Source: Chaetoderma sp. LZ-2023a (lineage: Eukaryota > Mollusca > Caudofoveata > Chaetodermatida > Chaetodermatidae). From it: 64,000 nucleotides of DNA. Below, piece by piece: positions 673 to 39,679 of this stretch; position 1 is the first letter of the stretch, and each line of letters opens with the position of its first letter. A program made the translations under genes and the position numbers. The notes below the pieces were generated by a model, which was not told the origin of the DNA, did not search any database, and was given only the letters and a program-made list of their open reading frames with translations. Where the stretch lies: positions 94,119,712 through 94,183,711 of the forward strand of contig CM067369.1 in assembly GCA_034401795.1 (NCBI GenBank), in the 5' to 3' direction.

Positions 673-2128
673 TGGCCGCATCCAGGCCAAAAAAAGCTTG
701 GATATTTATGAATATCCAAGTTCTGTGGAGCTTGAATAAACCAGCTAATCCAAGCTTTTAATAACTTGGAAAAGCTTGGATTAGCTTGCTGGTATTGGCC
801 ACATAAAATTCAAGATAATTCAAGAAAATCCAAGAAAGGCCTAGTTAAAGTAAAATCCAAGAAAATTCCAGATAGCTTGAACATTCAAGAAAATGCTAGC
901 TAACTTGGACATTCAAGATAATCCAAGCTAGCTTGTCTGTATTGGCCACTTAAGATCCAAGAATATTCCAGCTAGCTTGAATATTCAAGAAAATCCAAGC
1001 TAGCTTGAACGTTCAAGAAAATCCAAGCCTGCTTGAACGTTCAAGAAAATCCCACTTAGCTTGGATTTTATTCCAGAAAGTCCCAGCTATCTAGAACTTC
1101 AAGAAAATCCGAGCTAATCCTAGCTTTTGAAATAGGTTAGCCATTAACATAAAATGTATGCACGTACACATACACGCTGCCACACAGAGATTATATATAA
1201 ATATGTACGCTTAAAACCCAAAATCACCTTCATGGGAGTTGAGTTATTCAATAACAAATACAATTTCAGCCAGACATTAGCAATGTATGAGTTTCTGACT
1301 GACTTGTCTGTTATTCTTATAGACATAGATTGTTAATGTGCCATATTATTTAGAAAGGCATCATCACTGCCTTAATTACATAGAACTGAAAAAGCTATAC
1401 CAAAACTGGTAATTCTGAATAAATCTCTGGAAATCAATAAAATACATACCTCAAAATACAGTTCTGTTTCCATTTAAGGTTACTGATGCTACGCATTCTA
1501 TCTAACAGTACTGTCAGTGTTTCCAAACTATCATATTCTATATATCCATAGCTGGTAATGATCAATGCAATGAATGTACTGTTTGCTTTTTTACAAAGAC
1601 TAAATTTCCCACCAATTTACCCGGCCAAGGTCGCCTCTAGTCATGACTATACAGAACCTGTTCGTGCCTTAGTGCAAGCTATTTCAAGATAATCCACGGT
1701 AGTGTAAGTGAGTCTACAAATTCAAGACATCCAAGTAGCTTGAATTCTTTTATGTCTGACAAAACAAAGTCCTAGAAAATCCAAGCTAGCTTGCATTCTG
1801 TCAAATCAGAAATGTCCAAGCAAATCCAAGAAGCTTGCACTTTTTCATGATGATATTCAAAAAGTCCTAGAAAATCCAAGCTAGCTTGAATTCTGACAGG
1901 GGAATTTTCCAGCAGTTCAAGCAACTATATAACGTCCAAGCTAATTCAAGGTAATCCAAGCTGGTATGGGTTGAATAATTTTCCAATAGCTTGGATATTC
2001 AAGAAAATCCAATTTACTTGAAATTTATTTCACACGGGTTAAACTTAGCTGGGATTAGCTGGTTTATTCAAGCTCCACTGAACTTGGATATTCATGAATA
2101 TCCAAGCTTTTTTTGGTCTGGGCAGGCA
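673..2128. mobile_element. AGCTTGG word-array element with terminal inverted repeats
   Basis: The first ~75 bases (675-755) and last ~80 bases (2045-2128) are inverted copies of each other. Both contain GGCCAAAAAAAGCTTGGATA or its near match, TGAATATCCAAG, GGAGCTTGAATAAACCAGC and TAATCC. Inside each end is an array (about 755-1135 and 1660-2045) of short words such as CCAAGCTAGCTTGAA, TTCAAGAAAATCC and AGCTTGGAT, many of them self-complementary. A unique core of about 500 bp (1140-1640) lies between the arrays and has no convincing ORF. The layout is end-array-core-array-end. It is probably a non-autonomous DNA element. No known family name is assigned and the target duplication is unclear. 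Confidence 0.7.
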
Positions 2129-2129
2129 T

Positions 2130-3160
2130 AAATAAAAACAAATTTTGGTGAAACACGATCACAACTAAAGTCCTCTCACATGGTATCTATGTACCAAATT
2201 TGAACTGAATATATGTTTAGACATTTTCAAACAATCCAACAGAAAACAAATTTTCAACAAATTTTAATTAGTCTGTCAGGTGAATAATCAGTGATTTCAT
2301 GGAAATTAAATCATATAGCACTGCATAATTTCCACCTAAATGATCCACTGGAAAGAAATGGCGAGTTTATATGTTCAAACTTTATGGGCCGGACAAAAAA
2401 TGTCTCATGAATTATAACTATGTCAGGGATGATAACTCTGCTGAATCCAAACAGATTTTGCTGAAACATGATAATAATTGAATATGTCTTAACATTCATA
2501 ATTAATGTAGTGGAAACTGAATTTGACAAATATTTAATTCTGCGCCATCTGGAGGAGATTAAACTACCTAAATAAGGATGTATTTCATCGAAATGAAATC
2601 ATAGCACTATGTGGATTCCACATAAAATATTCAGGGGAAAAAATAAGAGCTTGGTAAAAAAAACTTTGATCTGGAAAGAAGTAAATTTGTATGAATAATA
2701 AGGTTTTACGAAGAAGATAATTCTGCCCATCATCGGCAGATTTCACCGACATGTGCCTGAAGCAAAATCATAGTTACTGAAGCTCTGTGTAAAATATTCA
2801 CTGAAAATAATTCTGAGAGAATAGTTTTGAAACTCTTAGAGATTGGGACCAAAACAAGAAAATTAAGACGACTAGTTTTCCAGGGGAGATAATGTATTTC
2901 AGTGAAAAAAGTACGGGGTAACCCACATATCTTCATGTGTTACTTCAAGCCACAATTACCAACGTTTACAAGAATCCATGTAGGAGTTGGGTTTACAGAA
3001 GATGATCACAGACAAACAGACACTGTCAGACAGATGGAAAGACAGATCGATGCCAAAACAGATGGACAGGCAGGTAAATGTTCAATGCCAATGGTTACTG
3101 ACCATGATGCTGATGCAAAAGAATTTCTGGTAAAATTTAAATGAATAATTGGATGTGCAT
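2130..3160 (+). mobile_element. Degraded core-repeat (pearl/Helitron-like) element
   Basis: Weakly conserved modules recur: TAGCACT, GGGATGATAACTCTGCTGAAT, GATTTTGCTGAAACATGAT. They resemble the 8390-9200 element. The array ends in a GACAGACAGATGG-type microsatellite (3010-3075), the usual position for the simple repeat in pearl-like elements. No terminal hairpin was found. The short ORFs here follow the repeats and are not genes. Confidence 0.45.
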
Positions 3161-3292
3161 ACAATTCTATGCACATTTCATCTACAGCATAATGCCCGAT
3201 GAAAACACTATACATATACTGAAAAAAGCAAATTCTAATAAATATATACTACACCCCATACTCTAATCTTAATTATGTAATTTAAACAAGCA

Positions 3293-4056
3293 GTCAAAGG
3301 GCCCACAGTATCACCCACCTGAATCATTAGTCAATCATATTCCTCTATATAAGAACAGAATCTGTTTGGATACGTGTTGAAAATTTGGTTCAAATTTCTG
3401 CAACAAAGTTCTGAAGCAGCTCAGTACCAAGCTTAACGTCCCTCCCGCCAATTTTGGTTGAAATCGACTTAGCATTTCTAAATGAGATGTAGTCTTTTAA
3501 ACAATCTCCTGGATATTTGCGGGAATTCAAGATAGCCATCAAAATAATTGGGTCTGTGACCTTGAACTATAACCTTTTGTTTCCAAAGGTTATTGGCAAC
3601 CCCTCCATTGGATTATTGTAAAAAAATTGGCATTTGAGCCTTGATGTTTTGACCACAAAGTCATGACACTTCTACAGGCATGTCAGGTTACTAAAGGTGC
3701 TGCTGCTGCTATTGCCATGGTTTGTGACAATCTGTTCCCTTTAATGGTCAAGATTTTTCAGAAGTGTATGTCCATTTGCAGGCCAAGAAAAGGCAATCTT
3801 TGAAAATTCATCACTGGAATGACTGGCTAGATTATCGAGCCAGTCATTCCAGTGATAAATTTTCAAAAATAGTCTTATCTTGGCCCACAAATGGACATTC
3901 CTCAAGACCACTGAAGAGGCAGGTTTTGGCCAACTTGACCATTAAAGGGTCATGCATGCCATTAGCTCTTGATTTTTCTAAGCAAGATGGCTGCCCGTCA
4001 AAGTGACCAATCAAAATTTTGAATGGTTTATGTCTCACCCAGGTGAGCTAATAATA
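3293..4056 (+). mobile_element. Core-repeat element of the CACCTGG/CCAGGTGAGC group, with a nested foldback
   Basis: The left end (CAAAGGGCCCACAGTATCACC) and right end (CACCCAGGTGAGCTAATAA, 4036-4054) match the ends shared by the elements at 22313, 43118 and others. The interior has modules of the type AATTTTGGTTGAAATCGAC and AAGATGGCTGCC. A family B foldback sits inside it (3737-3949). The element is old and has lost its microsatellite. Confidence 0.6.
3737..3949. mobile_element. Family B foldback MITE
   Basis: This is a nearly complete 213-bp palindrome: CCCTTTAATGGTCAAG at the left end pairs with CTTGACCATTAAAGGG at the right. The inner stem is TCACTGGAATGACTGGCT and its inverse GAGCCAGTCATTCCAGTGA, with TGTCCATTTGCAGGCCAAGA in the arms. 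It is non-coding; ORFs on both strands simply mirror the palindrome. Flanks here (TGTT/TCAT) are not the TTAA seen around other copies. Confidence 0.8.
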
Positions 4057-4536
4057 TCCACATTCATAAATTTCATATCAGTGAATCTCACTTTCATATT
4101 CCTCCACGATTCATTTTTTATCTTACCTTCCTGCTATTAATCAGATTTATATATTATTGTGCGGAGATAAAGATGTATTTCAATGGTGTCTGTCATGGCG
4201 CAGTATCGTTTTATGACCACTATACCAACAGTTAAACCATAACCCCTGCAATTCAGATCTCCGCATCTCAGATGCGATATTCCACATTATAAACTCTCCA
4301 GAAATATTTTACATAATAATGTGGACATTTTTACATTAGTAGATCTTCTGCTCCAAAATGGACAAATAATACGGAAAATATATGGAGATATATGGAAACA
4401 TTACAGGATTGTGGACTTAGTTTCTTTCAATAGAGGGAAAAAATGCAGATATGATGTGAAGTTTTTTCAATAGCGGGAAAGATACGGTAAATATGCAGAG
4501 AAAATGCGGATGAGATCACTTCACATAAAATGGTCT
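4057..4536. other. AT-rich interval, nothing recognised
   Basis: No ORF, RNA gene or repeat shared with the rest of the window was seen. Short direct similarities (GGAAAATATATGGAGATATATGG, in part self-similar) suggest simple-sequence decay. Confidence 0.4.
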
Positions 4537-4540
4537 TTAA

Positions 4541-4772
4541 CCCTTTAACACACATATCGGTCAAAAACTGCTTCAGCGGTGTTCTTGAAAAATGTCCATT
4601 TGCAGACCAAGAGAAGAGTATTTTTGAAAATGTACTACTGGAATGACTGGCTTGATAACCGAGCCAGTCATTCCAGTGGTAAGTTTTCAAAAATACTCTT
4701 CTCTTGGTCTGCAATTGGATATTTTCTAGGAGAAAATTGAAATTTTTTAAAACAAATTTGAGGGGTAAAGGG
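4541..4772. mobile_element. Family B foldback MITE flanked by TTAA
   Basis: TTAA (4537-4540), then CCCTTTAACACA..., then ...GGGGTAAAGGG, then TTAA (4773-4776). The inner palindrome is ACTGGAATGACTGGCT/AGCCAGTCATTCCAGT. A TTAA duplication with CCC...GGG ends is the signature of piggyBac-type transposition, so a piggyBac-like transposase is the likely mobiliser (inference). The element itself is non-coding. Confidence 0.8.
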
Positions 4773-4776
4773 TTAA

Positions 4777-5755
4777 TCAAACACATGCAGTTCTGGAGTC
4801 TTAACACCATAGGCCGGTGAAAAGCATTAATTGTAGGTAAAAATATGTATACTTAATTTACTGCATTTTTTGTTTGAAAATTAAAACTAGGACTTCATAT
4901 TGAATGAGTGCATGTAGCTGTTAGCCTTTATGTCCTTACTCACTCACCCCACCCTCTCCCGCCACACCCCCTACAGTAAAATACAAGAAAAGCGGAAAAT
5001 TCTGTGAAATTATTCCGCAAACATATCTCGCAGAGATTCCTGGTTATTGGTTGTCTTGCGGATATTTTGTAGAGAATTCTCTCCGTGGTTTATTTTGCAC
5101 AGTCGATGCAGAACTAATGTGTCTGTCGCTGTCGTACTAGTAAATTAGATTTGAAATCTTCAACATTCGCAGCTTACATCCATATATGCTTAACCCGCTA
5201 CAACCTGAGGCACTGGGATATTTCAGGGATGAAAGAGTTAAACCAGTTCCATACTGGCTTTTAAGATTATTGTTTTTCCAAATGAGACAGATAAAAAACA
5301 TTTTCTTACTTTTATAGCAGCAGAAGCTTAATACCAAGCATTCTGCAGCTTACTGTATATCACTTAATTTAACCATTGAAACCCCAGAAGCTAACATTAA
5401 CAAAAAATCACAGACAAGACGCTGAATATTTATAAGTTAATGCTCATGGCTGTGACAGCCAATTTAGTTTCAAATTGTTTGACATATTTCCTTCATAAAA
5501 AAGAATTGGTTGCATTAATTGCCATTGGCCTGCCTGTATGCCAATGAATGGGTCAGCACTCTTTTTTACTACTAACACTATCAGGTTTTTCATCTATACG
5601 ACTTTCTCTACAAACACTTTGATGTGGTAACCATTATTATATCCCTGTCTGAAAAGCTTTGACAATGATTTGATCAACTTCAGAATATCTCTAACAGTTT
5701 AATGATCAAGCTGGCCAACATGATTTCTTAAATCCCTGAACTGATCCCAGAAAAC
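4777..5755. other. Interval without recognised features
   Basis: Mixed AT-rich sequence with a C-rich patch (4940-4975). The minus-strand 66-codon ORF at 5137-5337 has no recognisable domain and is not called. Confidence 0.4.
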
Positions 5756-6022
5756 TATACAGGTAAGCTATTGAATATTTTGAAACTAATTTGACTGGGT
5801 GCTGGGCACCCATTCAAATGAGTTTCAAAATATTCGACAGAATGTTTATTAAATATTAAAGATAGACAGTTTGTACGTGTCTGACTATTAAATGTTTAAA
5901 TACGGACTAAATCGAGTCATTTATGCTACAATTGATTCTGACGTCATCCTACACGTCATGTAGTTGATTTTGAAATCATTTGACATCAGGTGATAGATCG
6001 ATAAACTGGAAAGGTCCATTAA
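5756..6022 (+). mobile_element. Family A foldback, 5'-truncated
   Basis: The hairpin (5770-5852) has a shortened loop (GGGTGCTGGGCACCC). It is followed by the family A right arm with TGACGTCATCC and AATCATTTGACATCA motifs, and ends AAACTGGAAAGGTCCATT. Confidence 0.7.
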
Positions 6023-6246
6023 GCCGAGTCAGTGGTAACTTTAAAAAACACTCTTCTTGGCCTGTAGGTATACATTGAGCAAAGACGTAACATTTCAATG
6101 GGCATTAACCTTGTGCTGCTTGCTGAATATGTTGAAAACAATTTGAAAGAAATCTTTGATGGGTTAACCACCAATAACCTTCTGTCAAATTGTTTTCAAA
6201 ATATTCAGTAAACCCCAAGGAAAATGTAGTCAAGCAGACAGTCTAA
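6023..6246. mobile_element. Fragments of family B and family D foldbacks
   Basis: 6030-6112 is a family B arm (CAGTGGTAACTTTAAAAAACA, CTTCTTGGCCTG). 6118-6232 is a damaged family D hairpin (GCTGAATATGTTGAAAACAA pairing with TTGTTTTCAAAATATTCAG), then GGAAAATGTAGTCAAGCAGA as in other D copies. Confidence 0.6.
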
Positions 6247-6418
6247 TCAGTGATTATGCATTGCATTCTGAATAATCCTAGTATATCAATCTTAAAGCAA
6301 CGATACTGCAGGCTAACTATTTTAAAATTACACTGATAGAAAATTTATAAGATTGCAATTAAAATTCAATAAAATTATATAATCATTAAAATTATAAGAA
6401 AACAATTTTGACAATTCA

Positions 6419-6448
6419 GTGTGTGTGCGTGCGTGCGAGCGTGCGTGT
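6419..6448. repeat. GTGC-type microsatellite
   Basis: Short (TGCG/GTGC)n run. The overlapping ORF starting at 6408 is a by-product. Confidence 0.7.
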
Positions 6449-6747
6449 CAAATATAGCATTGATACAATAAAGAAATCTAGCTTGCCACACTGCCAAGCA
6501 GTGAGGAGGCATTTTATTTTATTGTACATCATAAAAATCTTATTGATTTTTAAGCCATGCCATTCAGACAGCTCGTTTACAGCGATCTACCATATAATTT
6601 GGAAACAAAATTTGCTGAATATTATAAAATAATTAGATTTGAAAGTAATCATTCATGTCACTGCACGGCAGCATATGAGGGGAGGATGTTGCCGAAATAT
6701 AATGCTGGTAGTGGTGGATCCATGAAGCGTAGAAAACAGATTATTAA

Positions 6748-6953
6748 CTGTCTGCCTGCTGAATTTATGCAGACTACATTTTCATTGGGGTTTAACTCTG
6801 GATATGCAGAATATTTTGAAAACAATTTGACTGAAAGTTGTTGGTGGCTAAGCCACCCATAACTTTCAGTCAAATTGTTTTCAAAATATTCAACAGGTTA
6901 AAGAGTTATTTCCCATTTAAATCAGGATCTGGTGGCTTGCAGCAGCAAGACAG
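6748..6953. mobile_element. Family D foldback MITE flanked by TTAA
   Basis: 206 bp between TTAA at 6744-6747 and TTAA at 6954-6957. The ends are CTGTCTGCCTGC and GCAAGACAG. The central hairpin pairs GAATATTTTGAAAACAATTT with its inverse around GGTGGCTAAGCCACC. The copy at 53088-53292 has the same length and layout. It is non-coding; two overlapping opposite ORFs mirror the palindrome. Confidence 0.8.
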
Positions 6954-6984
6954 TTAAACCATTTAACTGTCACAGACCCGCGAC

Positions 6985-7313
6985 GATAACCTAGGCTTAT
7001 TAAGCCAGTAATACCGGTGATAAATTTTCAAAAATAGTCTTCTCTTGGACATTTCTCAAGACCACTGCAGAAGCTGGTTTTGGCTGATATGAGTGTTACC
7101 CCTTTAACACCTATTTCAGCCAAAAACGGCTTCTGAACAGGTCTTGAGAAATGTTCATTTGCAGACCAGAGACCATTTTTTTTAATTTTACCACTGGAAT
7201 CAATGGCTCGATAACAGAGCCAGTCATTTCAGTGGTAAATTTGCAAAAAAGTCTTCTTTTGGTCTGTAAATGGACATTTTCTTGAACAAATTCGTGAGAT
7301 AAAGGGCTAAAGG
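6985..7313. mobile_element. Half and whole family B foldbacks, head to head
   Basis: 6990-7099 is a right half (ACCGGTGATAAATTTTCAAA to GCTGATATGAGTGTTA). It abuts a whole copy, about 7100-7313, starting CCCCTTTAACACC and ending AAAGGG near TTAA. Confidence 0.7.
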
Positions 7314-7369
7314 GTTAAGCACGCTACTCTTATAGCAACAGGGTTCACTGATAAGTCTCTTATTTTATG

Positions 7370-7875
7370 ATCAAGTTCGACTTGCTAACCATAGCCAGTT
7401 TACTAATTTACTGAACATGCGCAGTTGCTATGCCCACTGGCATGATGGATACCAGATTCCCCATTAAATTACTATAGAAAATTTGGAGCTGGGTACCTGG
7501 CAGTCTCTATTAACCATTTCTGTCAACTGTTTTGATGGCCCACGAAAATGGGTTACTTTTGTCCGCAAAGATGTCAAAAAAGTGTCCATATAATATAAAG
7601 TGGGAAGGAAATGGATCTTGGGAACATTGACACCATAATTTCATCAAACTTAGATAGGTTACTATTAGGGAAATATTATCATGTTTATATGCATTTAACC
7701 GTGACAAGCGAAACTTGTCCGCCATTTTGGATTCTATAGCAATTTCATAATAACCGTTTGGAACCGAGCTCGGGTGCTCGGTTGACTATAGGTGACTAGC
7801 TAAAGTTAACTATTTCAAGTTTGACTGGAATCTAGTTAACTATAGCTAACTATGGTTAGTGAGTCTAACTTGACC
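7370..7875 (+). repeat. Family E interspersed repeat
   Basis: Matches 63060-63570 over about 500 bp with indels: GATTCCCCATTAAATTACTA, CACGAAAATGGGTTACTTTT, AAAGTGGGAAGGAAATGG. The right end is an AGTTAACTATAGCTAACTA palindromic-word cluster (7780-7860) in both copies. No coding capacity conserved between the copies was seen. Confidence 0.75.
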
Positions 7876-8389
7876 TATGATGATCATCATAGGCTTTGCT
7901 ACAAGAGGCGCTTTTAAATAAATCCACTCAGACAAAGGTGACTGACCTTAATAGACCTTTACCACATTAGCGTATTTTAGGAAAATACTTTCCCGGAATG
8001 CATCACGCATACCACTTCCGGTGGGTAAATGCGATATCCACCGCGCAAACAGCATTACTTTACCATGGGAATCAGATACAGTGCCCTTTAGGCAGTGCAT
8101 ATGAAAAACTATGTTCATAATATTTTTGAAGTCATACAACATTGGAAAGCTAAGCCAATTGTCTATACATTTCTGTATTAGTTTTTATAGTTTTATAAAA
8201 TTTAATACTGTTGATTGCAATTTAAAAAAAACAACTATTGTCCACTTGATTTAATGAATCTAAGTCGAATGGTGTATTTTAGATATGCAAATAATTCAGT
8301 GAAAACGTTACAAAAATATAAAATATAATGCATTAATGTTTCGGCAATTGAATGCGCTTTCCAATGATATATGATTTAAGCCGATCTCG
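7876..8389. other. Interval without recognised features
   Basis: Contains the short inverted word GATGATCATC (7878-7890). No coding or RNA signal. Confidence 0.4.
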
Positions 8390-9215
8390 CTCAAATAAAA
8401 TCATGACACTTCGTCTCTACCTAATAATTGTCCACTGGAAAAAAGAATTTCAAATGTAGGTTCAAAACTCACAAATCTTACTCTTTTCAGGGGGTGCATA
8501 ACTCTCACAAATACGGATGGATCTTGCTTAAACAAAATTATGACACTTCGTGATTAGCTAATATGTCCACTGAAACAAAAAAATTTAAATGTAGATTAAA
8601 AACCTTTTGAGATATGGCCTTGGACATGAAATATTTTACGCATTTTAGGGGGGATAACTCTCACAAATATGGACAGATCTTGCCAAAACCAAACCATGAC
8701 ACATCGCCTCTACCTAATATATGCAATGAAAAAAATTTCAAATGTAGATTAAAAACTTTTTGAGATATGGCCCAGACAAAATTTTTGATGCATTTTAAGC
8801 ATTTCAGTGGGAGGGATTATCAACTGTCACAAATATGAACGGATCTCGCTGAAACAAAATCATGACACTTCTCTACATAATATAGTCACTGAAAAAAAAT
8901 GTCAAACGTAGATTAAAACCCTTTTGAGATATGGCCTGAACATGAAATTTTGTATGCGTTTTAAGCATTTCAGAGGGGACAACTCTCATAAATACAGACG
9001 GATCTCGCCGAAATAAAATCATGACACATCGTCTCTACATAATATTCCACTAAAATGAAAATTTCAAACCGACATTAAAAACTTTTTGAGATATGGCCCG
9101 AACATGGATTTGCTAGCAGACGGACAGACAGACGGAGAGACAGATGGCATGCGTCATCACATAATACAAATCTGCGTTGCAGATTGGTATTTGTATTTTC
9201 TGGTCTGATTGTGAG
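8390..9215 (+). mobile_element. Core-repeat element with GACG microsatellite and 3' hairpin
   Basis: Four to five tandem cores of about 159-165 bp, each carrying AAAATCATGACAC, TTTTTGAGATATGGCC, GATAACTCTCACAAATA and CGGATCTCGC (8840 and 9000 are 159 apart). Then GACGGACAGACAGACGGAGA (9119-9140) and a hairpin AATCTGC-GTT-GCAGATT (9169-9187). Cores, simple repeat and terminal stem-loop are the published layout of pearl and Helitron-associated interspersed elements. It is non-coding. Confidence 0.7.
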
Positions 9216-9542: not shown

Positions 9543-9770
9543 TTATAACATATGATTCGAAGTTGCCATGTAATTACAACTATTTCTGCGATCTGCACAG
9601 AGAATCTGCTTTTTAATAGCACCGGCGTGGAGATCAGCGAGATAATCTGTGACCATATCGCCCCAAAGACATTTGCCTAATGAGACTTTGTGAGCAGTTA
9701 AACCTGTTGCTATTTGACTGGCAAATATCAATGTTATGACTAAAAGATGTTGAATATGACAGGGCTTCAT
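9543..9770 (-). CDS. Candidate small secreted protein, last coding exon
   Basis: An unrecognised 75-codon minus-strand ORF. The N-terminus looks like a cleavable signal peptide: MKP..., a hydrophobic stretch LLVITLIFASQIATGLTA at about residues 9-26, then a polar mature part of about 49 residues with three cysteines (KCLWG, ILCADRR, NSCNY). Directly upstream on the minus strand is TGATTTTTCAG followed by ATATG, a good splice acceptor placing a 5'-UTR intron two bases before the ATG. It lies between transposable elements but is not itself repeated in the window. Secretion is inferred. A chance ORF with a hydrophobic start remains possible, and the odd number of mature cysteines argues for caution. 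Confidence 0.38.
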   Translation of the reverse strand: MKPCHIQHLLVITLIFASQIATGLTAHKVSLGKCLWGDMVTDYLADLHAGAIKKQILCADRRNSCNYMATSNHML

Positions 9771-9794
9771 ATCTGAAAAATCATGGTGAGCTAG

Positions 9795-11055
9795 ATACGA
9801 CCAGGGCTAGGCAAGTGATCACCCTGTTTTCCTAACCATGGTCAATGAACATGGTTTGATCATGAATTGGCCATGAAAAACGATCAGTTACTATGCAGGT
9901 TAAATGGCACCACAGTCAGCCCATGGTCTAGCATGATCAGCAAATTTCTCATGACCATGATAAAACCATATTGACGGTCGGTGACAAACCATGGTTTGAC
10001 CATGGTCAAACAGACCATGGTTTGAACGGTGACATTTAAGCTCTGTTTTTCCTAACCATCGACAAACCATGGTTAATGACCATCATTGACCATGCAGGTT
10101 AAATGGCACCACAGTCAGACCATGATCAACAAATTTCTCGTGACCATGATAAAACCAAATAGAACATGGTCAAACAGAACATGGCGCGACCATGGTAAAC
10201 CACGGTTTGAATAGTGACATTTGACCATGGTCAAACGTGGTCTACCTTGGTCTTACCGTGGTGCCACTTATCCTGAACGGTTGAGATGGTCATGGTCAGC
10301 AATCCAGCTCCGCTTTTATAACAAAGTGTACATTTACTATTCAAATGTCATAATTAATGATGATTACATAATTTATGTGCAATTGAATAATTGAAGACTT
10401 TAAATGCAAAGGACACATGTTTTCAGTGAAAGAGTTGCCTCCCTTATTAAATTACACTGACCATGGTCAAATAATTGTTCCTGAAAATGTTCAGTAACAG
10501 TTTTAAAAAGGGAATTTTAAGCAGAATTTAAGGTCTAAGAACCTGAAAATATTCAAGAGCAGCGTAGGAACATTTTAATATCTCACGTTCAAGAATTGTT
10601 CTTCAGTACTATCTTTTTTTAGATATTGGGTGCCATCTCTGGCCATGGTATCACTGTCAATAGGAATAACATTGAAATTCTCCAGTGACCATAATATATC
10701 ATGTCAGAGGGACATTAATTATTGTTAAAATACATCTGACCATATCACTCTCAATAGCAATAACATTTAAATTCTCCAGTAACCATGGTCGACCATAATG
10801 TATCATGATCAGTGGGGTAGAAATTCAGTTACACATGAACTGACCATCAAGTGACCATGATATCATGATTGATAACAAAACCTCTTAAATTTATGGCAAA
10901 CATGGTTATTCGTGGTCATCTGACCATGATGTACTGACCATGTTAGCATGGTCATTGGGACCCTGGTCAGGTGAGCAGAAAATCATGGTCGACCATGGTC
11001 AAACCATGAACTACCATGGTCGACTGTGACATCATGGTCAGTAGCAATTCAGGGA
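9795..11055. mobile_element. CCATGGTCA word-array element
   Basis: Dozens of ACCATGGTCA, TGACCATG and CATGGTTTGACCATGG words occur in both orientations, in two arrays (about 9830-10290 and 10640-11040) around a unique core (about 10310-10620). In the left array a ~200-bp unit beginning ATGCAGGTTAAATGGCACCA is present twice (9893 and 10093). No terminal inverted repeat was found. The layout matches the elements at 673 and 23640. Confidence 0.55.
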
Positions 11056-12440
11056 CTGACTCCTCTTGTAGAACCAAAATTTGCAAATATCTTACTATTT
11101 TTAATTTGCATTTATAGCAAAATATCTAAATGTTCATTTATGTTTTGAGATTTGACGCGAGCTACTCCAGAGATGAAAAACGAGGTGAGATGCATGCGCG
11201 AGAGTGATACTGACTCTCCTCAAAATCGAAGCCTTGATATGGATGTAAATCTATGTTTTACTCATTTTCCTGTTTACTTGTATTGATATACTCCAAAATA
11301 ACAAGCAAACTTTCTACCGGAACCTGCGCATATTGGATGAAATTTGCAATGAGATGAAACTACCAGGAGTCATAGAAATCTCTGCACATGGGTTAAACTT
11401 CCAAGCTATTATAACACTTACTAAATAGACCACCATTCTGAGAATACATAGGCCTACGTTGACTCCCATTAGAGTAGCTTGTATCGATCGATATCTAGCA
11501 ACCTGCCAACATAAGAAGGGAATAGAGCCTGCAGGGATTGAGAAGTGTTAGCTCCTCTTTACTTGGGGTGTTTGGCAGTCACTACAAAGTTGTACAATTC
11601 TGGGAATTTTTCTAATTAATCAGGCTGTAGTAATTGATATAAAATATTACGATATTAAATATTCATTTGAAATTATGATTTTCTAGCACAGGCCAAAATT
11701 ATAAAATATTTAACCAACCCCTGTCCCATGAGGTTAATTGAAATAAGTTTTCTTCTATTTTTTGCGAGAAATGTATTCGTATAAATAGTAAATTTTCGTA
11801 ACAGTAATCGTTAAATTATCAATTTCTCTAGCCTTTGAGTCTAAACAACAATGTGACAGGTCCGGATAAAAAAGAAAATGCTAAGTGTAGTCCGTAAATA
11901 CAGGCAAAATATCATTTTCCCTATACGAAGAGCAGTCACTTATCTCATGAGACACATTTATTTTTGAATTTTGTTAATTATGGAAAGCAGATTATCTGCC
12001 TAAACAGAATGTTATACCGGTTTTATGTTACATCTCGAGAGTTCGGTATCAGCAAAATCATATCAGTATAACTAACAGTATAGCTATGATACTGGTATTC
12101 AAGATAATATTGGTTTATCGTGAAACCCTAGCTGCGACTAGTGAGACTACTACCTACACCAAGCTAAGAGTAATGAGTCAATAGAGTTAAGTCTGCAGAA
12201 CTTGAGACGTAATAATCGGCTGCCTCTATCACCTACAGGTGCTTTTCAACCAGCTACTTTGCTGCTGCATTAAAATCTATACAATAAAATTCCACAAGAC
12301 CAACCCAACACCAACCCCCACCACAACCCCCACCCCCACCAGTGTCCATACTGGATTATATTCCGCTACAGAAGGAATGTGCCAACGATAAGGACTTTAT
12401 AAACGAGGAAAAGAAATCCCTGGCAAAGCATAAATTATGC
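11056..12440. other. 1.4-kb interval without recognised features
   Basis: No ORF of note. An ACCCCCACC-rich patch lies at 12303-12340. Degraded repeat or intergenic DNA; any host exon here is too short to support. Confidence 0.4.
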
Positions 12441-13779: not shown

Positions 13780-15195
13780 TGTCTCCTGTTTGTCACAGTG
13801 GCATTGACCTTTGACCTTGTGACCTCTGTGTTATGATGCCACTTCCTAACATTATAGGCTACCATATATTCAAGTTTAGATTAACCAATCCTGAAATGTA
13901 AATGATTTGCTGAATGGAAAAACTTACGGTTGAAAAGCAGAGTTCAAATAGCAATATTAGAATAGCCTTGACCTGTGTCCTGGTGAGCTCTATGTCACCA
14001 TCTTGTATCCTCTTGGCATAAGCAACCATGTACCCAAGTTGTGTTCGATTTGGGTTAAGCAATCCCGAAATATAAAATATGATAAGATTTGCTAAGCCTA
14101 AGAACTTAACATTGAAAAGTAACAAAGTTTTGTAGAAGTCAGAACGACCTTGACCTTCGACGTTGTGACTTCAGTGTCAGCATGCTGCTTCCTAACATTA
14201 TAGGTAACAAGTTATCCATGTTTAGTTCCAATACGGTTAACCAATCCAGAAAGATAAGCCAAGAGGTTTTGCTAAACACAAAAACTTAACAATAAAAAAG
14301 CAGAGTTTTGTATCATGATCACAGTGACCTTGACCATGTGGCCTCAGTATCATCATGATGCTTACTAACAGCATAACCTACCTCATAGCCAAGTTTAGTT
14401 GCAATAGGCCTAATCAATCATGAAATATAAGCTGAGAAGTTTTGTTAAATGCAAAAAATTAATGTTGAAATAACAGAGTTCTGTATCAAGGTCACGTGAT
14501 GCTGACATCAGCGTGCTGTTTCCTTTCAATGTATATCTCATGTACCCAAGTTTGGTTCCAATTGGATCAGGCATTGCTGAGATATAAGACAATAATTTTT
14601 GTTTAACGCCAAAGACTTAACGTAAAATATTAACAAAGATTATACCGTGACCTTTGACCCCATGACCTTGACTGCATGATGTCTGCATAAGCATGCTGCT
14701 TCCTCTTGATGTATGTCACCATGTATCCAAGTTTCGTTCGAATTGGATCAGGCACTGCTGAGATATAAGACAATAACTTTTGTTTAACGCAAAATATTAA
14801 CAAAGATTATACTGTGACCTTTGACCCCATAACCTTGACGTCATGACCGCTTTATCAGTAGCCTCCTTCCATTCAATGTATATCACGATGTACCCAAGTT
14901 TGTTTCAAATTGGATCAGGCATTGCTGAGATATAAGGTAAAAACTTTTGTTTAATGAAAAAACTTAACGTAAAATATTAACAAAGATTATACCATGATCT
15001 TTGACCCCCATAACCTTGACCGCATGATGTCTGCATCAGTATGCTGCTTCCTTTTGATGTATATCACCATGTACCCAAGTTTGGTTCCAATTGGATCAGG
15101 CATTGCTGAGATATAAAGCTATAACTTTTGTTTAACGCAAAAACTTAACGTAAAATATTAACAAAGATTATACCATGACCTTTGACCTCATAACC
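13780..15195 (+). mobile_element. GACCTTGACC core-repeat element, left part
   Basis: About eight tandem modules of roughly 165-181 bp, each with TGACCTTTGACC, a GCATGCTGCTTCC box, CCAAGTTTGGTTCCAATTGG, CAGGCATTGCTGAGATATAA and ACGTAAAATATTAACAAAGA. Spacings of the CCAAGTTTG box near the end are 181, 167 and 181. It continues after the pogo segment at 17106-17340. It is non-coding; ORFs repeat with the modules. Confidence 0.75.
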
Positions 15196-16241: not shown

Positions 16242-17105
16242 TACAAATAATCCAGCTTGACATGCCTATCAGATGGCACGAAGCATCTTAATATATTCCC
16301 AACATTTCCAATCGTATCACTGTCATATCGTATTTTATATAATATATCATAGTATATCATCATCATCATAATAATATATTATAATATAGTGCTATAATCT
16401 AGTTTATTCCACGCATTGTTTATTAAATAAATTGAATTATCTTCAATTTGAAATGATTTTCTATTCTCATCCTTTCGTTTCCATAGTTACTTCGTCATAC
16501 GTTGACGGCTGTGACCTTTAACCTTAACCTGTCAATCATAATCATCATCCTGCATGCCGATTGGTCAAAACGTTGTGCCGTTTAGCACATAGAAAACATT
16601 CCTTTCTATATCTATGTAAATGCTAGATCGCCTTGAAAAGCATCGGCCCTATCATTCTTTTTTAACATATTTATGTCCGTATCTGTGTAGCAATCTATGG
16701 ATTTTAAACATCTCTATGTTCAACTTGGGAAGACAAGAGTAACCTCCCTTTATAGACATAAATTAGAACAAATTACAGGAAACAATGGCGTTGTAAAAAA
16801 GTTGAATGATGGTTTATTTGATCATTTTACAACACCATATGATATTTAATAAAGGTATAACACAATATTTAGACAGTAGTAAGGCATTTCAACGATCTAT
16901 TTGAGATAGTACCATTATAGACATGTTAGAATGCGATCGTTATTCCCGACTGATTCCCGATCCATAAAATCACATTTTCAGCTCTGAATTTTGTGATTCT
17001 GACGAAAAATTCTGAGGAAAAAAATGTGACAAATATTTATCCTTGTATATAGTGCGCAGCAGCTTTTTATAACATGTAATTTGAGCAAAAAAGTGTGCAA
17101 TATAC
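16242..17105. other. Sequence downstream of the pogo relic
   Basis: Unique in the window. It holds AATAAATTGAATT (16427) and AATAAAGG (16847), possible poly(A) signals, and ATAATATAT-rich DNA (16330-16400). It is probably the 3' part of the inserted element, but no inverted end was matched. Confidence 0.4.
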
Positions 17106-17340
17106 ACAGAATTTAACGGTAACAAAGATTATACTGTAACCGTTGACCCCTGTAACCTTGACCTCATGGCCTTTTTATCAGCGGGTTGCTTCATTTTGAC
17201 GTATATTACCATCTACCCAAGTTTGGTTCCAATTGGATCAGGCATTGCTAAGATATAAACTTAGCTTAAAAGTTTATGCCACCGCCGCCGGAAAAGTGAT
17301 ACCTATGTCTCGATCCTGCTTCGCAGGGCGAGTAAAATTC
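17106..17340 (+). mobile_element. GACCTTGACC core-repeat element, 3' end with hairpin
   Basis: The last module (GGTAACAAAGATTATACTGT, CCAAGTTTGGTTCCAATTGG) is followed by GCCACCGCCGCCGG and a stem-loop CCTGC-TTC-GCAGG (17310-17322) before GAGTAAAATTCTG. It lacks a GACG microsatellite but keeps the terminal hairpin. Confidence 0.7.
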
Positions 17341-17352
17341 TGAAAATAATGT

Positions 17353-17425
17353 ACGAAATGTTTTGCTGAATATTTTGAATTTAATTGGATTGAATTTTCC
17401 AATTATGTTCAAAATATCCAACAGT
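17353..17425. mobile_element. Short foldback (family A/D-type arms)
   Basis: TGCTGAATATTTTGAATTTAATTGG pairs with CCAATTATGTTCAAAATATCCAACA (positions 17361-17421), with a minimal loop. Confidence 0.6.
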
Positions 17426-17452
17426 ACGTTTTATTTTGTTTTGGAAACATGT

Positions 17453-17700
17453 TTTAACCCTTTCACAGAGGCCAGTTTTTGCCGGCTTGACCGCTAAAGG
17501 ATTAAGCTTTTTCTGAGTTGTACTGTACATTTCTTTACTGCTTTAATGTTCAAATTTTGCCAAGAAAATTTCAATTCTCTCATACGAAACCTCCATCTGT
17601 CCTTTAGGCTGCAAATGGAGGTTTTCCGAACCTATATCAGAAGCCATTTTGGCGATCTTGACCATTAAAGGGCCGATAGACATTCCATTATAAATGACAC
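17453..17700. mobile_element. Family B fragments
   Basis: TTAACCCTTTCACAGAGGCC (17454-17473) and GGCTTGACCGCTAAAGGATTAA (17490-17506), then arms with GGCTGCAAATGGAGGTTTTC and TTGACCATTAAAGGG. Degraded. Confidence 0.55.
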
Positions 17701-17799
17701 TGACTGAAATTTAAGTGTGCAATAGGCGAATGATGTTAGCTCGCAGTGCTAGTTTGCGCAAGCCATCCACAAGCACACACTGTTAACTTTCCCTGTATG

Positions 17800-18357
17800 C
17801 TTAACCGCATGCTACTGCAACTTTATGCATGCTTAACTGCGTGCTCCCTCAACCTTGCACATGCCTAACCACATGCTCCCATAACCTCGCACAAGCTTAA
17901 CCGCATGCTACTGCAACTTTATGCATGCTTAACTGCGTGCTCCCTCAACCTTGCACATGCCTAACCACATGCTCCCATAACCTCGCACAAGCTTAACCGC
18001 ATGCTACTGCAACTTTATGCATGCTTAACTGCGTGCTCCCACAACCTTGCACATGCCTAACCACATGCTCCCATAACCTCTCACAAGCTTAACCGCATGC
18101 TACTGCAACTTTATGCATGCTTAACTGTGTCCTCCCACAACCTTGCACATGCCTAACCACATGCTCCCATAACCTCGCACAAGCTTAACCGCATGCTACT
18201 GCAACTTTATGCATGCTTAACTGTGTGCTCCCACAACCTTGCACATGCCTAACCACATGCTCCCATAACCTCGCACAAGCTTAACTGCATGCTCCCGCAA
18301 CTTTGCACACACTTACCCAACCGCATGCTCCCTCAACCTCGCGTGCTCCCACAAACT
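17800..18357. repeat. Satellite with 96-bp higher-order unit of three 32-bp monomers
   Basis: About 5.5 copies of a 96-bp unit; AAGCTTAACC recurs at intervals of exactly 96 (17894, 17990, 18086, 18182, 18278). Each unit is three related 32-mers, starting CTTAACCGCATGCTACTGCA, CTTAACTGCGTGCTCCCTCA and CCTAACCACATGCTCCCATA. Copies differ at only a few bases. The array decays after 18300. It is non-coding. Confidence 0.9.
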
Positions 18358-18840
18358 CATCTTTTTAATCTTTTCAAACCTCTTCACAGACCAGATTGAG
18401 AATATCAGAAATCTTTGTCTCTCTGTTTCTCTGTCTGTTCGTCAAATCTTTTACATTTTTGACAAAGCTGCCTAAGTAACAACTATAGTGCATCACACTT
18501 GTCCTAAGATGGTGGAAATATCCGTAATAAGAATTTTGAGAGTGAGTTAACTATATGGAAATCACTGTTGTCTGAGATTATATTGCCTGTTCCTGTTTAA
18601 ATTGATTTCAAATTACAGTATTTCAGGCAGTTTCGGATCACTACTTAAACCATTATTTCCTATGAAGTTACTCATGGAATAAATTTAAATTTAGTTTGAC
18701 TTTTGCCCTTCGAAGAATTTTACAATAGTATGAGTTAACTGAATACAGCAATTCCGATCACTTTGGGTAGTTTCAGATCATGCCATTTTAACTGTCAGTT
18801 TGACGACTATAAAAGAATATTTTTAAACCAATCTTTCCTA
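18358..18840. other. Interval without recognised features
   Basis: Contains TTTGGGTAGTTTCAGATCA and a similar TCAGGCAGTTTCGGATCACTA, a weak direct repeat. No coding signal. Confidence 0.35.
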
Positions 18841-18879
18841 ATGTCATATGTTTTGACACGGCCAAAAACAACAAGAGCT

Positions 18880-19995
18880 CCGAAAATGGCGCATAACACC
18901 CTGCCATGATGACAAACCAATGAATGAGAGCTATCAGAAAATATTTATTTCTTCCTCAGACCCAGACCAGTCATCCTTATGAAGTGTTAAAGCAATCCGT
19001 TAAAAGGTCAAGGAGGTATCGTCCGGAAAGCAATTTTCAAGATGACCATCACTGACTGGTGACCATATTGGATTTTGGATATTTCGATAGGTTTCTTCAA
19101 CACACATATTCCAACGACCCTAAGAAGTGATCCGATAAATGGTAACGGAGATATCATCCAGACACCAACTTTCAAGATGGTAACCCATGGCTGGCAGCCA
19201 TCTTGGAGTTCAGATCATCATCAATTTCGATAGGTTTCTTCTCCAGACCTAGTTCAACCACCCTATCAAGTTTCATAGCGATCTGATAAACGATAACAGT
19301 TATCATTTGGAGACCAATTTTCAAGATGGCCACTGGTGGCTGGTGGCCATCTTGGATTTAGGATCAATGTTGATTTCGATAGGTTTCTTCCCCAGACCTA
19401 TTCCAACAACTCTACAAAGTTTCAGTGATCCGATAAATGGTAACGAAGTTATCATCCGGAAACCAATTTTCAAGATGGCCGCCAGTGGAGTGGCTGCCAT
19501 CTTGGATTTCTGATCATTGTTGATTTCGATATGTTTCTTCCCCAGACATAGTCCAACCACTCTATGAAGTTTCAAAGCGATCCGATAAACGGTAACGGAG
19601 TTATCATCCGGAAACAAATTTTCAAGATGGCCGCTGGTAGTTGCCGGCCATCTTCGATTTCAGATCATCGCAGATTTCGATAGATTTCTTCCAAAGATCT
19701 AGTCCAACCACCCTATGAAGTTTCAATCCGATCCGACAAACAGTAATGGAGTTATGACCCGGAAACCAATTTTCAAGATGGCTGCTGGCGGCCATCTTGG
19801 ATATTGGATCATCGTCGCTTTCAATCGGTTTCTTCCCAAGACCTAGTCCAACCACCCTATAAAGTTTCAATGTGATCCGACAAACGGTAATGGAGTTATC
19901 ATCCGGAAACCTCTCTGCCGCCCGCCAGTCCGCCCGAACGGATGGCGCCATTACATAATACCATGCCAAATTATATGGCGGGGTATAAAAATGTG
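18880..19995 (+). mobile_element. Core-repeat element with AAGATGGCC modules
   Basis: About six tandem cores of 148-153 bp with CCGGAAACCAATTTTCAAGA, GGCCATCTTGGATTT, TTTCGATAGGTTTCTTCC, CCAACCACCCTAT and AGTTTCAAAGCGATCCGATA. Then a GCCCGCCAGTCCGCCCG patch and an imperfect terminal stem-loop, CCATGCCA/TATGGCGGGG (19962-19985). The minus-strand ORFs at 19321-20035 only reflect the period being divisible by three in places. Confidence 0.7.
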
Positions 19996-20614
19996 AAAAC
20001 CATAAATGACATACAAATGTATGCTGTCTATACAAGCATTTTTAGCATACCAAGCTTTGATAAGATTCTCAAGATTAGATTTTAGTAGTTGGATCGTTAA
20101 TCGGGACAGGGAGTTTATTATGGATTAAATGCTGGAAATCTGACACAATTGAGATGGTTTGTATGTTTCTAGGTTGTCTATAAACTGAAGCTACTAACAA
20201 ACATAGCAAAATATTAAACAAAAGCCGAGTTCCAAGAAACTTGTTTGATATTTAAGATAGTCATCTGAAATTGCCGATGATCCGGAACTGCTGTACCAAC
20301 TGTATTGAACATATTTCTTGTAGCCTTCTGGTTGACAGAAATCTAAAGGGATTTGATTGGCGAAAGCATTAAAGATTTATCAATCTTATGGCATGGCACA
20401 ATATCTCATGGACTTCGACAAGACCTATATTTACTATATATATTTAAAACAGGCCCTAAAATTTGGAAGACTATAGGAACCTAAAAATCGATTACCTGAT
20501 TTTTGCCACAGGTAATCTATCGTTCGGTTATGCAATATGGCTTTGCATAACCTTTTTCATTATATTAAATGGTTACCTAATGTAAGACCTGTGTATTTAT
20601 CTCCAAATTCTCGA
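19996..20614. other. Interval without recognised features
   Basis: No ORF, RNA gene or shared repeat seen. Confidence 0.35.
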
Positions 20615-20618
20615 TTAA

Positions 20619-20800
20619 CCCTTACCACTCTGGTGTCAATATTCTATCTTTTACTGTGTCAATATCAAAGAAACTGGTGTACATTTTTCAACAATTTTGT
20701 TGGGCGATGTTGCTGTCCACCAAATTTGATGAAAAATGAACACAGTTCATCTTTTAATTCAACTATAAAATTAAAAATATTGACATCAGTGTGGTAAGGG
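20619..20800. mobile_element. Family C foldback MITE flanked by TTAA
   Basis: 182 bp between TTAA 20615-20618 and TTAA 20801-20804. Ends CCCTTACCACTCTGGTGTCA and TGACATCAGTGTGGTAAGGG. The arms include TTTTTCAACAATTTTGTTGG and its inverse. A related copy at 53640-53840 also has TTAA on both sides. The end structure suggests piggyBac-type mobilisation. Confidence 0.85.
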
Positions 20801-20804
20801 TTAA

Positions 20805-22312
20805 AGCTGCCTTTTAAACAATCATTGAATATCTGGATGCTAGCGTTTTCTCTGTGATATTTGATTTGTATCGGGATGCTAATGTTTTCTTTGTAACATT
20901 TCATTTCTATCACAATCTATCAGTTTATCCAGTGAGTCATTTATGTGTTCTACAGTATCTTGACTATCTGATTATTGCAATGCAAATGCGTAGTGTTACC
21001 ATGCAGGGCTAGAATTTTAACACAAATCCATTAATGGATAAAAATATGACATAGTTTTAAAATGGCTAATATTTAGTTATCTAAAGCTGCCATTATGTAT
21101 TATTCGAAACAGAAAGGTTGAGATAAGAGGTTAATTTTTTTAGACTTCACAATATAAATTTTGCTTGTCTTATGTTGAGTGGTCGTCATTCAGAATATAA
21201 TTTGAAAAGAATGTTCCAGATAAGTTTGTTTTTCCAAACACAATAAATTTGGTGCATCTTATGTGGGTTCGAGATAAGAAGTGCGTTTTATGGCACTTCG
21301 CTGTATAAATTTGGCGCGCATTATGTGATACAGACATTGTGCATTATAGTCTATATTCTTCCGAGATTGGAAGGTAGGTTTTAAATGCCTTTAAAGCATT
21401 CTGAATCTGTCTAACATTCAGCTTTTTTCGCTTAGCTACTATTTTAAATAAGGAATCCAAAAATAAACATATAGCACATTTTTCATTATTTATCTGAACA
21501 ATTCCGAAATGTGTTGTTTCAAGAGCTGTTCTATGAGTCTTAATACATTATAGTATACGATTAGTAACTGACAAACAAGACTAACTACGACTTATGGACT
21601 ACTTTATTACTAATCATCCAGACCTACATACAGTTAAAGCTGATGCTCCACTTATATAAACACATTTCCTTCTTTCGAACGCAGAGCTAACCAAACCAGA
21701 CCACATATATTTTTATATGACAATGAATTTGATTAGACTGAGAACAATCAGGTCAACTAATCATAATCATGGATACTTAAACTTATGGCCGGCTTCTGAT
21801 GTGAAACTATGCAATTAGCACTTATCAGAGACGTCTGAGCAAAACACACATAATGGTAATATGTTTGGTTTATGCCCGACGTTTTCCATAGTTTATCTAA
21901 GTTATTTCCAATTTGCCACGAAAAGCTTAAAAAAACACTGGCTTATTTTCAGCAAGCATGCGAGCTCAAACCACCCACCGAGCTTGTCCATGATAATCCA
22001 TTCCAATTTACATCCTCGGAAATCCATTTGTATGATTTTATTGGATACCAGTGTAAATTCTGCCAACTTCATTCTGCTGCGTAGCCGTAGGATAGCATAA
22101 CATGACCCAAGTAGTTATAAATTCTCCCTAGTCACGAAAATCTGTCAACAATTATGGTACATCAACTGGTTTTTCTTATTTTAATAGCCGATTTTCATAT
22201 CTAAATACGCACAACCGGATATAGATAACTTTCAAGGCACATGGAACTGAATGAAATGAATGTAGCAGAAAAAATTCAAAAACTTTTAATATAATTTTTT
22301 ATTTTAAATTCA
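20805..22312. other. 1.5-kb interval without recognised features
   Basis: AT-rich. The words GATAAGAGGTTAA/GATAAGAAGTGCG and TATAAATTTTGCTTG/TATAAATTTGGCGCG occur twice each (21123-21300), an old tandem duplication. Overlapping ORFs at 21861-22100 show no recognisable domain. Confidence 0.4.
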
Positions 22313-23570
22313 GAACAAGAGGCCCAAGGGTCCTGTATCGCTCACCTGGACCATAGGCATCTCAAATAGAATGGTCATTAACAATAAGTAAAACTCCAAT
22401 GAGTTGAGCAGACTTGTAACAAGAAAACAGAGGCCATGTTTCTTTATGTATCAACTTCTCTTGAACAAACTTTAATGGCGCTTAGTCATCAATATCATAT
22501 CGCCAAAATTTCGGCCCAATCCGTTCAGTGGCTCTGGAGACGAAGTTGTTTTCATGAAAACCAGGCGATCCAAGATGGCCACACAACCATTTTGCAAATC
22601 AAGTTCCTTTAAACAAACTTGGTTCAGCTTGTGCCCTAAACGATATTTTATGACTTTTGAATCAATCGCTCAGTTTCAGCGAAGATCTTTAAAGACATTT
22701 CTAAAAATCGGCCAAATCCAAGATGGCCAGCGGCCAAATTGGCCGATCAGCTTTGTTTGAACAAACTTGAATCTCTACACCCTAAGGATGCTTCCTGCCA
22801 AATATAATTGAAATCGGCCCAGCAGTTTTCGAGAAGACATTTTAAATTTCCCATTGCTTTAGTATGGGAGCTTTTGGCAGGAAAATGATTCAAGATGGCT
22901 ACCAAACCATTTATCCGACAGTTTTAAAAATTGCAAATTTGTGATCAGAATACCAAAAAACATATATAAAACCAATTTCCGCCTCAAAATCGATCAAATA
23001 AAAAAATCTAACATGGTCGCCAAATATGCTGTATTTTGATTGGCCCACTGCGGCCATGTTTTTTGACGGATCAACTTCCCTTGAACAAACTTTAATGGCC
23101 CTTAGTCCCTAATCATATCTGCCAAATTTCGGCCCAATCCGTTCAGCGGTTCTGGAGAAGTCGTTTTCACTAAAACTAGGTCAACCAAAATAGCCACCGA
23201 ACTATTTGACCAATGACGTTCCCTTGAACAAACTTGGTTCAATTCTTGCCCTAGATCATATTTCATGGGGTTTGCTTCAATCCACCAAACGGTTTCGGAG
23301 ATTTTTAAAGACATTTCCTAAAATCAGCCGAAATCCAAGATGGGTGCCAGCCAAATTGGCTGATCGACTTCCTTTGAACAAACTTGGATCCCTATGCCCT
23401 AAGGATACTTCCTGCGAAATATAATTGAAATCGGCCCAGTGGTTCTTGAAAATACATGTAAGTCGTTTAAAGGAAAAGTTGATGGACAGACGACGGATGG
23501 ATGATGGACACACGATGGACGGTCGCCACAGCATAAGCTCACTTGGCCTTTCAGGCCAGGTGAGCTAATA
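22313..23570 (+). mobile_element. Core-repeat element, complete, with 5' and 3' hairpins
   Basis: The left end AGAGGCCCAAGGGTCCTGTA is followed by CTCACCTGGACCATAGGCAT. Cores of about 148-150 bp follow: AACAAACTT boxes at 22463, 22613, 22761, 23085, 23227 and 23377, with AATTTCGGCCCAATCCGTTC and AAGATGGCC. Then a GACGGATGGATGATGGACAC simple repeat. The 3' end is a 31-nt stem-loop (23536-23566) pairing AGCTCAC and TGGCCT with AGGCCA and GTGAGCT, then AATAA. The best preserved member of this group here; non-coding. Confidence 0.8.
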
Positions 23571-23639
23571 ATGATGGTGAGCGATTTTTCGTTTATGTCT
23601 TTTTAGCATCGGGTAACTGACAGGCGGATGAAACGATCG

Positions 23640-24416
23640 TTCTTTGTCCTACAGTAATATTCATGAGCAGTTCCCACCATTTTGCTGTCAGCCTATTGTC
23701 AGTTTATTGCCAGTATGTTGTAAGACTATTACCAGATTAAAGTGGCAAGAAACAATGATGCAGCTGACAATAGACTGGTAATAAGCAGCTGACAACAGAC
23801 TGGTAAGAAACTAATTTGTAGCTGACAACAGGCCGACAATAATGTGACAACAGACTGGCATGCAAATGACAAAACCAGTGGTAGATTCTTGCCAGTGTAT
23901 TGTCATACATACTGCCAGTGTGTTATCAGTTAACTGACGAGAAAATATTTGGGACAAACTTCTGACAACACACTGACAATATAGCTGACAATACAGTGAA
24001 ACTGTTCCAAATCCCTCCTATTGTCAGATATTCAGTGTATTGTCAGTGTATAACCAGTCTGTTGTCAGATGTTAAAATGTTTCCAGTGTATTGTCAGTCT
24101 ATTGTTAGATCAATTTCTCCTATTAGATATATGTTAAGTCTTTGTAAATTTTGAGTGTGTCTTCACTTACTGAGTTTCATAAACCATCATTACCAGTCTG
24201 TTGTTAGTCTATTACCAGCTTATTATCAGTGGGTCAGAGTACAAGATGGCATCTGACAATAAACTGACAATAGACTGAAAATACACTGGCAATCATCTGA
24301 CAATTTATTACCAGTTTATTACCATATCTGACAATAGTATGACAACACACTGGTTTCACACTGACAATAGGCTGTAATAGACTGACAATAGACTGGTAAT
24401 AAGTGAATTTTTCCTA
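23640..24416. mobile_element. CTGACAATAGACTGGTAA word-array element
   Basis: More than thirty variants of TTGTCAGTCTATTACCAG and its inverse CTGACAATAGACTGGTAATA in mixed orientation. A short unique core lies at about 24110-24190. Words are spaced irregularly, unlike a satellite. No terminal inverted repeat longer than the words themselves was found. Strong secondary structure is expected from the mixed orientation. Confidence 0.6.
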
Positions 24417-39660: not shown

Positions 39661-39679
39661 AAATCTCTGAGATTAAAGT

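Follow-up and report, generated by a model that had tools for sequence, protein, structure and literature searches.

Three dispersed families of non-autonomous DNA transposons sharing one anatomy, with family-specific word arrays, in the genome of the mollusc Chaetoderma sp. LZ-2023a

We analysed a stretch of 64,000 nucleotides, hereafter the window, of the caudofoveate mollusc Chaetoderma sp. LZ-2023a (GenBank assembly GCA_034401795.1, contig CM067369.1, positions 94,119,712 to 94,183,711 of the forward strand), which lies on scaffold C11 (278 Mb) of an assembly totalling 2.44 Gb. Three of its regions, here named E1, E2 and E3, had been singled out from the sequence alone as elements of one architecture, in which irregular arrays of a short word in both orientations stand on either side of a unique core. 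All three regions proved real, although their proper limits differ from those originally drawn (673-2128, 9795-11055 and 23640-24416; Table 1). They are members of three dispersed non-autonomous DNA transposon families with one anatomy, namely CCC...GGG ends, 2-bp target-site duplications (TSDs), several hundred bp of words in two orientations by each end, and a unique core. Among the three, only the words differ, and in every family the copies are spread over many chromosomes.

The arrays were assessed by the count of the commonest 8-mer on both strands, simple repeats excluded, relative to 500 dinucleotide shuffles of each region. The maximum was 12 in E1, 18 in E2 and 13 in E3, versus at most 5, 5 and 4 in the shuffles, which rules out a chance origin and upholds the claim of dense, irregular arrays of one word on both strands. 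Those window tiles of the same size that outrank E1-E3 in repeated 8-mers overlap either with listed tandem arrays (14520-15195, 17797-18339, 18948-19911 and 43279-44154) or with the other elements among E1-E3. A tandem satellite is itself ruled out for E1-E3 by the irregular spacing, the two orientations and the fixed ends. The words had also been described as largely self-complementary. This is true of E2, with CCATGG inside its word, but not of the other two: the E1 7-mer contains only the 4-bp palindrome AGCT, and the E3 15-mer is self-complementary at 8 of 14 letters at best. The E3 array word CTGACAATA occurs 12 times in E3 and nowhere else in the window. Neighbouring words are spaced by 20 bp in opposite orientation (6 pairs) and by 10 or 28 bp in the same orientation in E1; by 10-11 bp in the same orientation (7 pairs) and by 4 and 20 bp in opposite orientation in E2, with 8 palindromic 4-bp overlaps; and by 11 bp (34 pairs) or 22 bp (14 pairs) in the same orientation in E3. 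These distances approximate one or two turns of the helix, the exception being the 28-bp period of E1.

In order to recover further copies, the assembly was searched with window positions 673-2128 (E1), 9700-11150 (E2) and 23600-24460 (E3), the best 40 of 1,103, 40 of 1,543 and 40 of 200 first-look candidates being scored, respectively. For E1 this yielded 42 places at E=0, including the window copy, the other 41 being 91-95% identical save one at 88%. In addition, a 40-mer of the E1 left end occurs 353 times in the assembly within 3 mismatches, and a 31-mer of the right end 116 times exactly, with no occurrence of the reversed-pattern control in either case. Divergence from the E1 majority sequence amounts to 1.8-3.3% in 20 of 21 copies and to 6.5% in one. 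Most E1 places align from query position 10 to about 1366 only, and query positions 1373-1450 align in reverse with the left ends of other copies. The long terminal inverted repeat that 673-2128 seems to possess is thus only apparent, because the left end of another copy lies inverted at its right margin. In the window, 33 E1 word positions were counted within 682-2117 (up to 1 mismatch). The composite of E1 and the inverted fragment (681-2122) is flanked by CA on both sides (679-680 and 2123-2124). Such composites, of which L011 is a further one, represent either a copy inserted in another or a copy to which an inverted left end has been joined; the outer 2-bp flanks match in both loci (TA in L011, CA in the window), as if each had moved as a unit.

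The E2 family is older, its copies being matched in pieces that are mostly 71-86% identical. Two of the 45 E2 word positions in the window, those outside the two arrays, make up one palindrome at 10458-10469. The window copy has no identical flanks (CA / AC). Seven E2 copies (L022, L024, L025, L026, L027, L028 and L031) carry an extra ~180-300 bp at the point equal to window 10332.

The E3 search returned 40 other main places, 77-89% identical, of which 26 have their first matching base at query position 41 or 42, equal to window 23640-23641. The assembly holds 51 matches to the E3 right end within 3 mismatches, the reversed-pattern control giving none. Upstream, several copies share a further ~1.1 kb, as far as a clean left end, CCCTTACGAAAACG; among the 10 usable rows of the flank table, 8 measure 1,940-1,992 bp and the others 1,527 and 1,857 bp. 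The window copy of E3 is therefore truncated, and its left array and core are missing from the window. In the complete copy L050, words are found mainly at 1-480 and 1148-1924, and three weak matches (with up to 2 mismatches) lie between these stretches.

Alignments and end tables of the copies showed that all three families begin with CCC and end with GGG, single copies deviating, as does the E1 copy of the window (TCC instead of CCC). Identical 2-bp flanks were found in 12 of 22 rows for E1 (permutation mean 3.1; p 0 of 2000), 4 of 12 for E2 (mean 0.75; p 0.002) and 6 of 12 for E3 (mean 1.15; p 0.0005), while at flank lengths of 1 and 3-8 bp these rows gave no significant excess of identity. 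Besides AT, the duplicated dinucleotides comprise TA, CA, CT, GT, AA, TC, GA and GG. Every row was counted: the truncated E3 copy of the window (L041), whose left end is a chance one, an E3 locus that was read on each strand (L053), a copy whose left end is poor (L026) and the composite E1 copy of the window (L001) are all included, and the fractions would be higher if these were left out.

Table 1. Parts of E1, E2 and E3 in the window
Feature	Coordinates	Strand	Details
E1, complete non-autonomous DNA transposon copy, ~1.36 kb	681..2038	+	CCCAGGCC (window copy TCCAGGCC) ... CACACGGG; ends from 20 aligned loci
E1 left subterminal array	695..1125		word AGCTTGGA and its complement; 17 of 33 word positions (up to 1 mismatch)
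E1 unique core, non-coding	1140..1655		1 word; no stop-to-stop frame >62 aa; three frames without Pfam match
E1 right subterminal array	1673..2038		11 of 33 word positions
Inverted left-end fragment of a second E1 copy	~2044..2122	-	4 of 33 words; reverse match to left ends of other copies
E2, old non-autonomous element	9822..11054	+	CCCTGTTTTCC ... CAGGG; copies and ends in assembly alignments
E2 left subterminal array	9833..10298		word CATGGTCA / palindrome ACCATGGT; 24 of 45 word positions
E2 right subterminal array	10640..11040		19 of 45 word positions
E3, right 40% of a 5'-truncated element	23640..24420	+	end CCTAAGGG; complete copies ~1.95 kb, CCCTTACGAAAA ... TTTTTCGTAAGGG
E3 right subterminal array, 11-bp steps	23694..24390		word CTGACAATA/GACTGGTAATA; 23 words (up to 1 mismatch); spacing from copy L050

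No stop-to-stop frame longer than 84 amino acids (aa) is present inside E1, E2 or E3, and ten frames taken from or near the cores gave no Pfam match over the cut-off, the matches below it being weak (DUF7385, E 0.024; DUF3671, E 0.079). Searches of the assembly for a transposase scored the best candidates only and did not read introns. Profile searches with Transposase_21 (PF02992) and DUF1258 (PF06869) gave one match each, both to the same open reading frame (ORF) on contig C2641, and the protein of this ORF, used as a query, found one further remnant, on C4. The C2641 frame (L063/L064), which is 549 aa long and the only one found by the profile searches, may be a TRC transposase that was domesticated or left stranded. 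By-eye pairing of E1 ends, with 100 of the 353 left and 100 of the 116 right ends listed, resulted in two long spans: one (L061) consists of two copies 5 kb apart, the first of which is interrupted near the beginning of its core by an insert of ~1 kb, and the other (L062) is a single copy split by LINE-like (long interspersed element) and DIRS-like frames, named by eye. For E3, 27 of the 51 right ends lie outside the E3 search places, and an autonomous E3 may be among them. We also fetched 20 E1 left ends regardless of body, drawn from the 100 listed, absent from the E=0 places and without an exact right end nearby, a choice that makes the sample lean towards imperfect copies. In 17 of them the E1 array and core were present at least in part; in L065, 44 bp of E1 left end give way to what by eye resembles the DIRS-like insert of L062, while L073 and L076 look like deletion remnants. 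Within this sample, which concerns E1 only, neither cores without arrays nor arrays forming satellites were encountered, and the original prediction of one class of dispersed non-autonomous elements is borne out by the shared ends, the 2-bp TSDs, the two-orientation arrays and the dispersed copies.

Based on these features, E1-E3 are probably non-autonomous cut-and-paste transposons of the CACTA (En/Spm) superfamily, in its TRC-like branch, their arrays being putative binding sites for a protein supplied in trans. Ends, duplications and arrays are the grounds for the proposed TRC membership. In TRC elements the termini are CCC and the duplications 2 bp long, with CCC recorded in Schistosoma, Tribolium and Aedes, and 2-bp repeats in 7 of 14 copies of the Schistosoma element SmTRC1 (PMC1636069). 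Spongebob/EnSpm-4N1_HM of Hydra starts with CCCAGCC (CCCAGCCAACATTGAC) and has a 2-bp TSD (PMC4298943). E1-E3 resemble these En/Spm members in the CCC start and the 2-bp TSD, and the Aedes TRC terminus CCCAGTCAAC and the Hydra CCCAGCC are similar to the CCCAGGCC of E1. SmTRC1 differs from E1-E3 in having a Transposase_21 protein, a 54-bp terminal inverted repeat (TIR) inside which a motif recurs, and a tandem-repeat region, whereas E1-E3 have no coding capacity that we could find and little TIR beyond ~3-12 bp. The arrays find their counterpart in plants, where the subterminal hallmark of CACTA elements is an array of 10-20-bp units in both orientations. Plant CACTA elements (En/Spm, Tgmt*, Jozin, LsC1) and their deletion derivatives carry several hundred bp of such units by each end, and direct and inverted units of 10-20 bp are likewise present in E1-E3. 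The maize protein TNPA recognises the subterminal units; the motif diverges widely between families, even within soybean, while the ends stay conserved (PMC2613891), as is the case across E1-E3. Plant elements differ by their CACTA ends and 3-bp duplications, as opposed to CCC and 2 bp here. Because the published TRC ends and TSDs and the CACTA subterminal arrays both match, the shared architecture is ordinary for the CACTA group. The statement that ordinary satellites and MITEs (miniature inverted-repeat transposable elements) do not look like this is correct, but CACTA elements do.

By analogy with the plant elements, the arrays would act as docking sites for protein, that is, as clustered predicted sites for an element-encoded DNA-binding protein provided in trans. 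Pairs of words in both orientations, separated by one or two turns of the helix, could load dimers and bring the two ends together, and a conserved transposase would cleave the DNA at the short terminal CCC. Each family would have a word of its own because binding protein and sites diverge jointly, the catalytic end sequence being kept, and array length would change passively, through slippage or unequal exchange of direct units.

Several observations weigh against this assignment: (i) identical 2-bp flanks are absent from 10 of the 22 E1 rows and from at least half of the rows for E2 and for E3, (ii) the TSD test has less force in the case of E2 and E3, there being poor ends among the 12 rows of each, and the E3 rows include the truncated window copy with its chance left end and one locus read twice, (iii) the TIRs of E1, E2 and E3 have little in common beyond CCC, (iv) no autonomous partner with these ends was found among the best candidates scored, introns not being read, and (v) no array comparable to those of E1-E3 lies in the stretch read around the C2641 ORF, 6.7 kb upstream and 1.6 kb downstream.

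The foremost alternative, which we regard as unlikely, is that E1-E3 constitute an undescribed group of DNA transposons with CCC ends, 2-bp duplications and a different transposase. It would account for the lack of any Transposase_21 relative linked to E1-E3 ends, with one ORF and one remnant in 2.44 Gb. It also draws on the small divergence of 20 of 21 E1 copies from their majority sequence, given above, from which it follows that a partner should have existed fairly recently. Against it, ends, duplication length and array style all agree with what has been described for TRC and CACTA elements, the loss of partners is common, and the search had the scope just stated. There is a slightly smaller chance still that the three families mark an animal lineage with CCC ends, 2-bp TSDs and a non-Transposase_21 transposase, in which the ends are recognised through large, fast-diverging, helix-phased arrays. 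If so, they would form a natural series, with a constant cutting end and a docking word that is wholly different in three families of one genome.

The original prediction also suggested that the elements may grow as short palindromes are copied, for example in hairpin-primed repair or by slippage when the element transposes. Both orientations do occur, half-words pair as palindromes in E1 and E2, and array length differs among copies, as this mechanism would have it. The length changes themselves argue otherwise. Across 34 E1 copies we recorded 43 changes of at least 8 bp, binned by position (6 bp) and length, so that a single event may be counted more than once; 31 fall in the arrays and 12 in the core. 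Of the 43, 12 measure exactly 10 bp and 5 exactly 28 bp; among the others are changes of 8-9 bp, many of which lie in the core, and deletions reaching 100 bp. The most frequent change, an insertion of 10 bp around position 60-70 (16 copies), matches its neighbour at 0.8-1.0 in direct and 0.5-0.7 in inverted orientation, and two 28-bp insertions do so at 0.86-0.89 and 0.57, respectively. A few 10-bp deletions, near consensus positions 84 and 1328, match their neighbours about as well in one orientation as in the other. The units gained, of 10 and 28 bp, are thus direct, not inverted, duplicates of their neighbours, and in the E2 copies L030, L036 and L037 right-half segments of roughly 120-140 bp are repeated in direct order. 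Slippage or unequal exchange of the ordinary kind is enough to explain array-length change, and growth by palindrome copying appears very improbable.

Even less credible are Helentron-like elements carrying repeat arrays. Elements of this group are not known to make target-site duplications. Repeat arrays have been reported in those of oyster and Drosophila (PMC7492417, PMC4067079), the two halves of E1 are unlike each other, and an 18-bp palindrome lies near the E1 left end; the arrays of E1-E3, however, are subterminal and in both orientations, the ends are CCC...GGG, and the 2-bp duplications argue against Helitrons and Helentrons alike. P-superfamily elements such as Galileo have other ends and longer duplications than E1-E3. 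They share with them the presence of many transposase-binding sites inside long ends, those of E1-E3 being putative, and several THAP-domain binding sites lie in the long TIRs of Galileo (PMC3688188). Three further classes were rejected: piggyBac, with CC[C/T]T ends and TTAA duplications (PMC2872659), by the absence of TTAA and of any significant 4-bp flank excess; ISL2EU, whose 2-bp duplication is the AT of A|AT|T (PMC4482050), since the duplications are not confined to AT; and ordinary MITEs, usually <500 bp with a conserved TIR (PMC2872659), by size (E1 ~1.36 kb, E3 ~1.95 kb) and arrays.

The window contains other repeats. A Tc1/mariner-like transposase frame of 343 aa, without interruption and carrying the domains HTH_Tnp_Tc3_2 and DDE_3, occupies 60980-62011 (+). 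Degenerate DIRS-like retroelement frames, named by eye, lie at 38315-40161 (+), with a tyrosine-recombinase N-domain match just below the cut-off; similar-looking elements break up the E1 copies L062 and L065. Near-perfect hairpins resembling foldback MITEs were noted by eye at 231-322, 3765-3900, 4593-4735, 5760-5840, 6790-6900 and 7140-7280, and comparable ones in L073 and L076. Tandem arrays include those at 17797-18339 (32/96 bp), 43279-44154 (~156 bp) and 51547-51673 (GTGC).

No publication was recognised as describing the E1, E2 or E3 families in the open literature, repeat libraries such as Repbase lying outside its scope, and in the portions of the published accounts at hand we found long bidirectional word arrays described for plant CACTA elements and none reported for animal TRC families. 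Arrays in the style of plant CACTA elements here stand beside CCC-type ends, in three families of very different ages. Unrelated words in one architecture are the expected outcome of a conserved transposase end combined with a diverging binding-site array, and the co-divergence of binding protein and word is testable within one genome.

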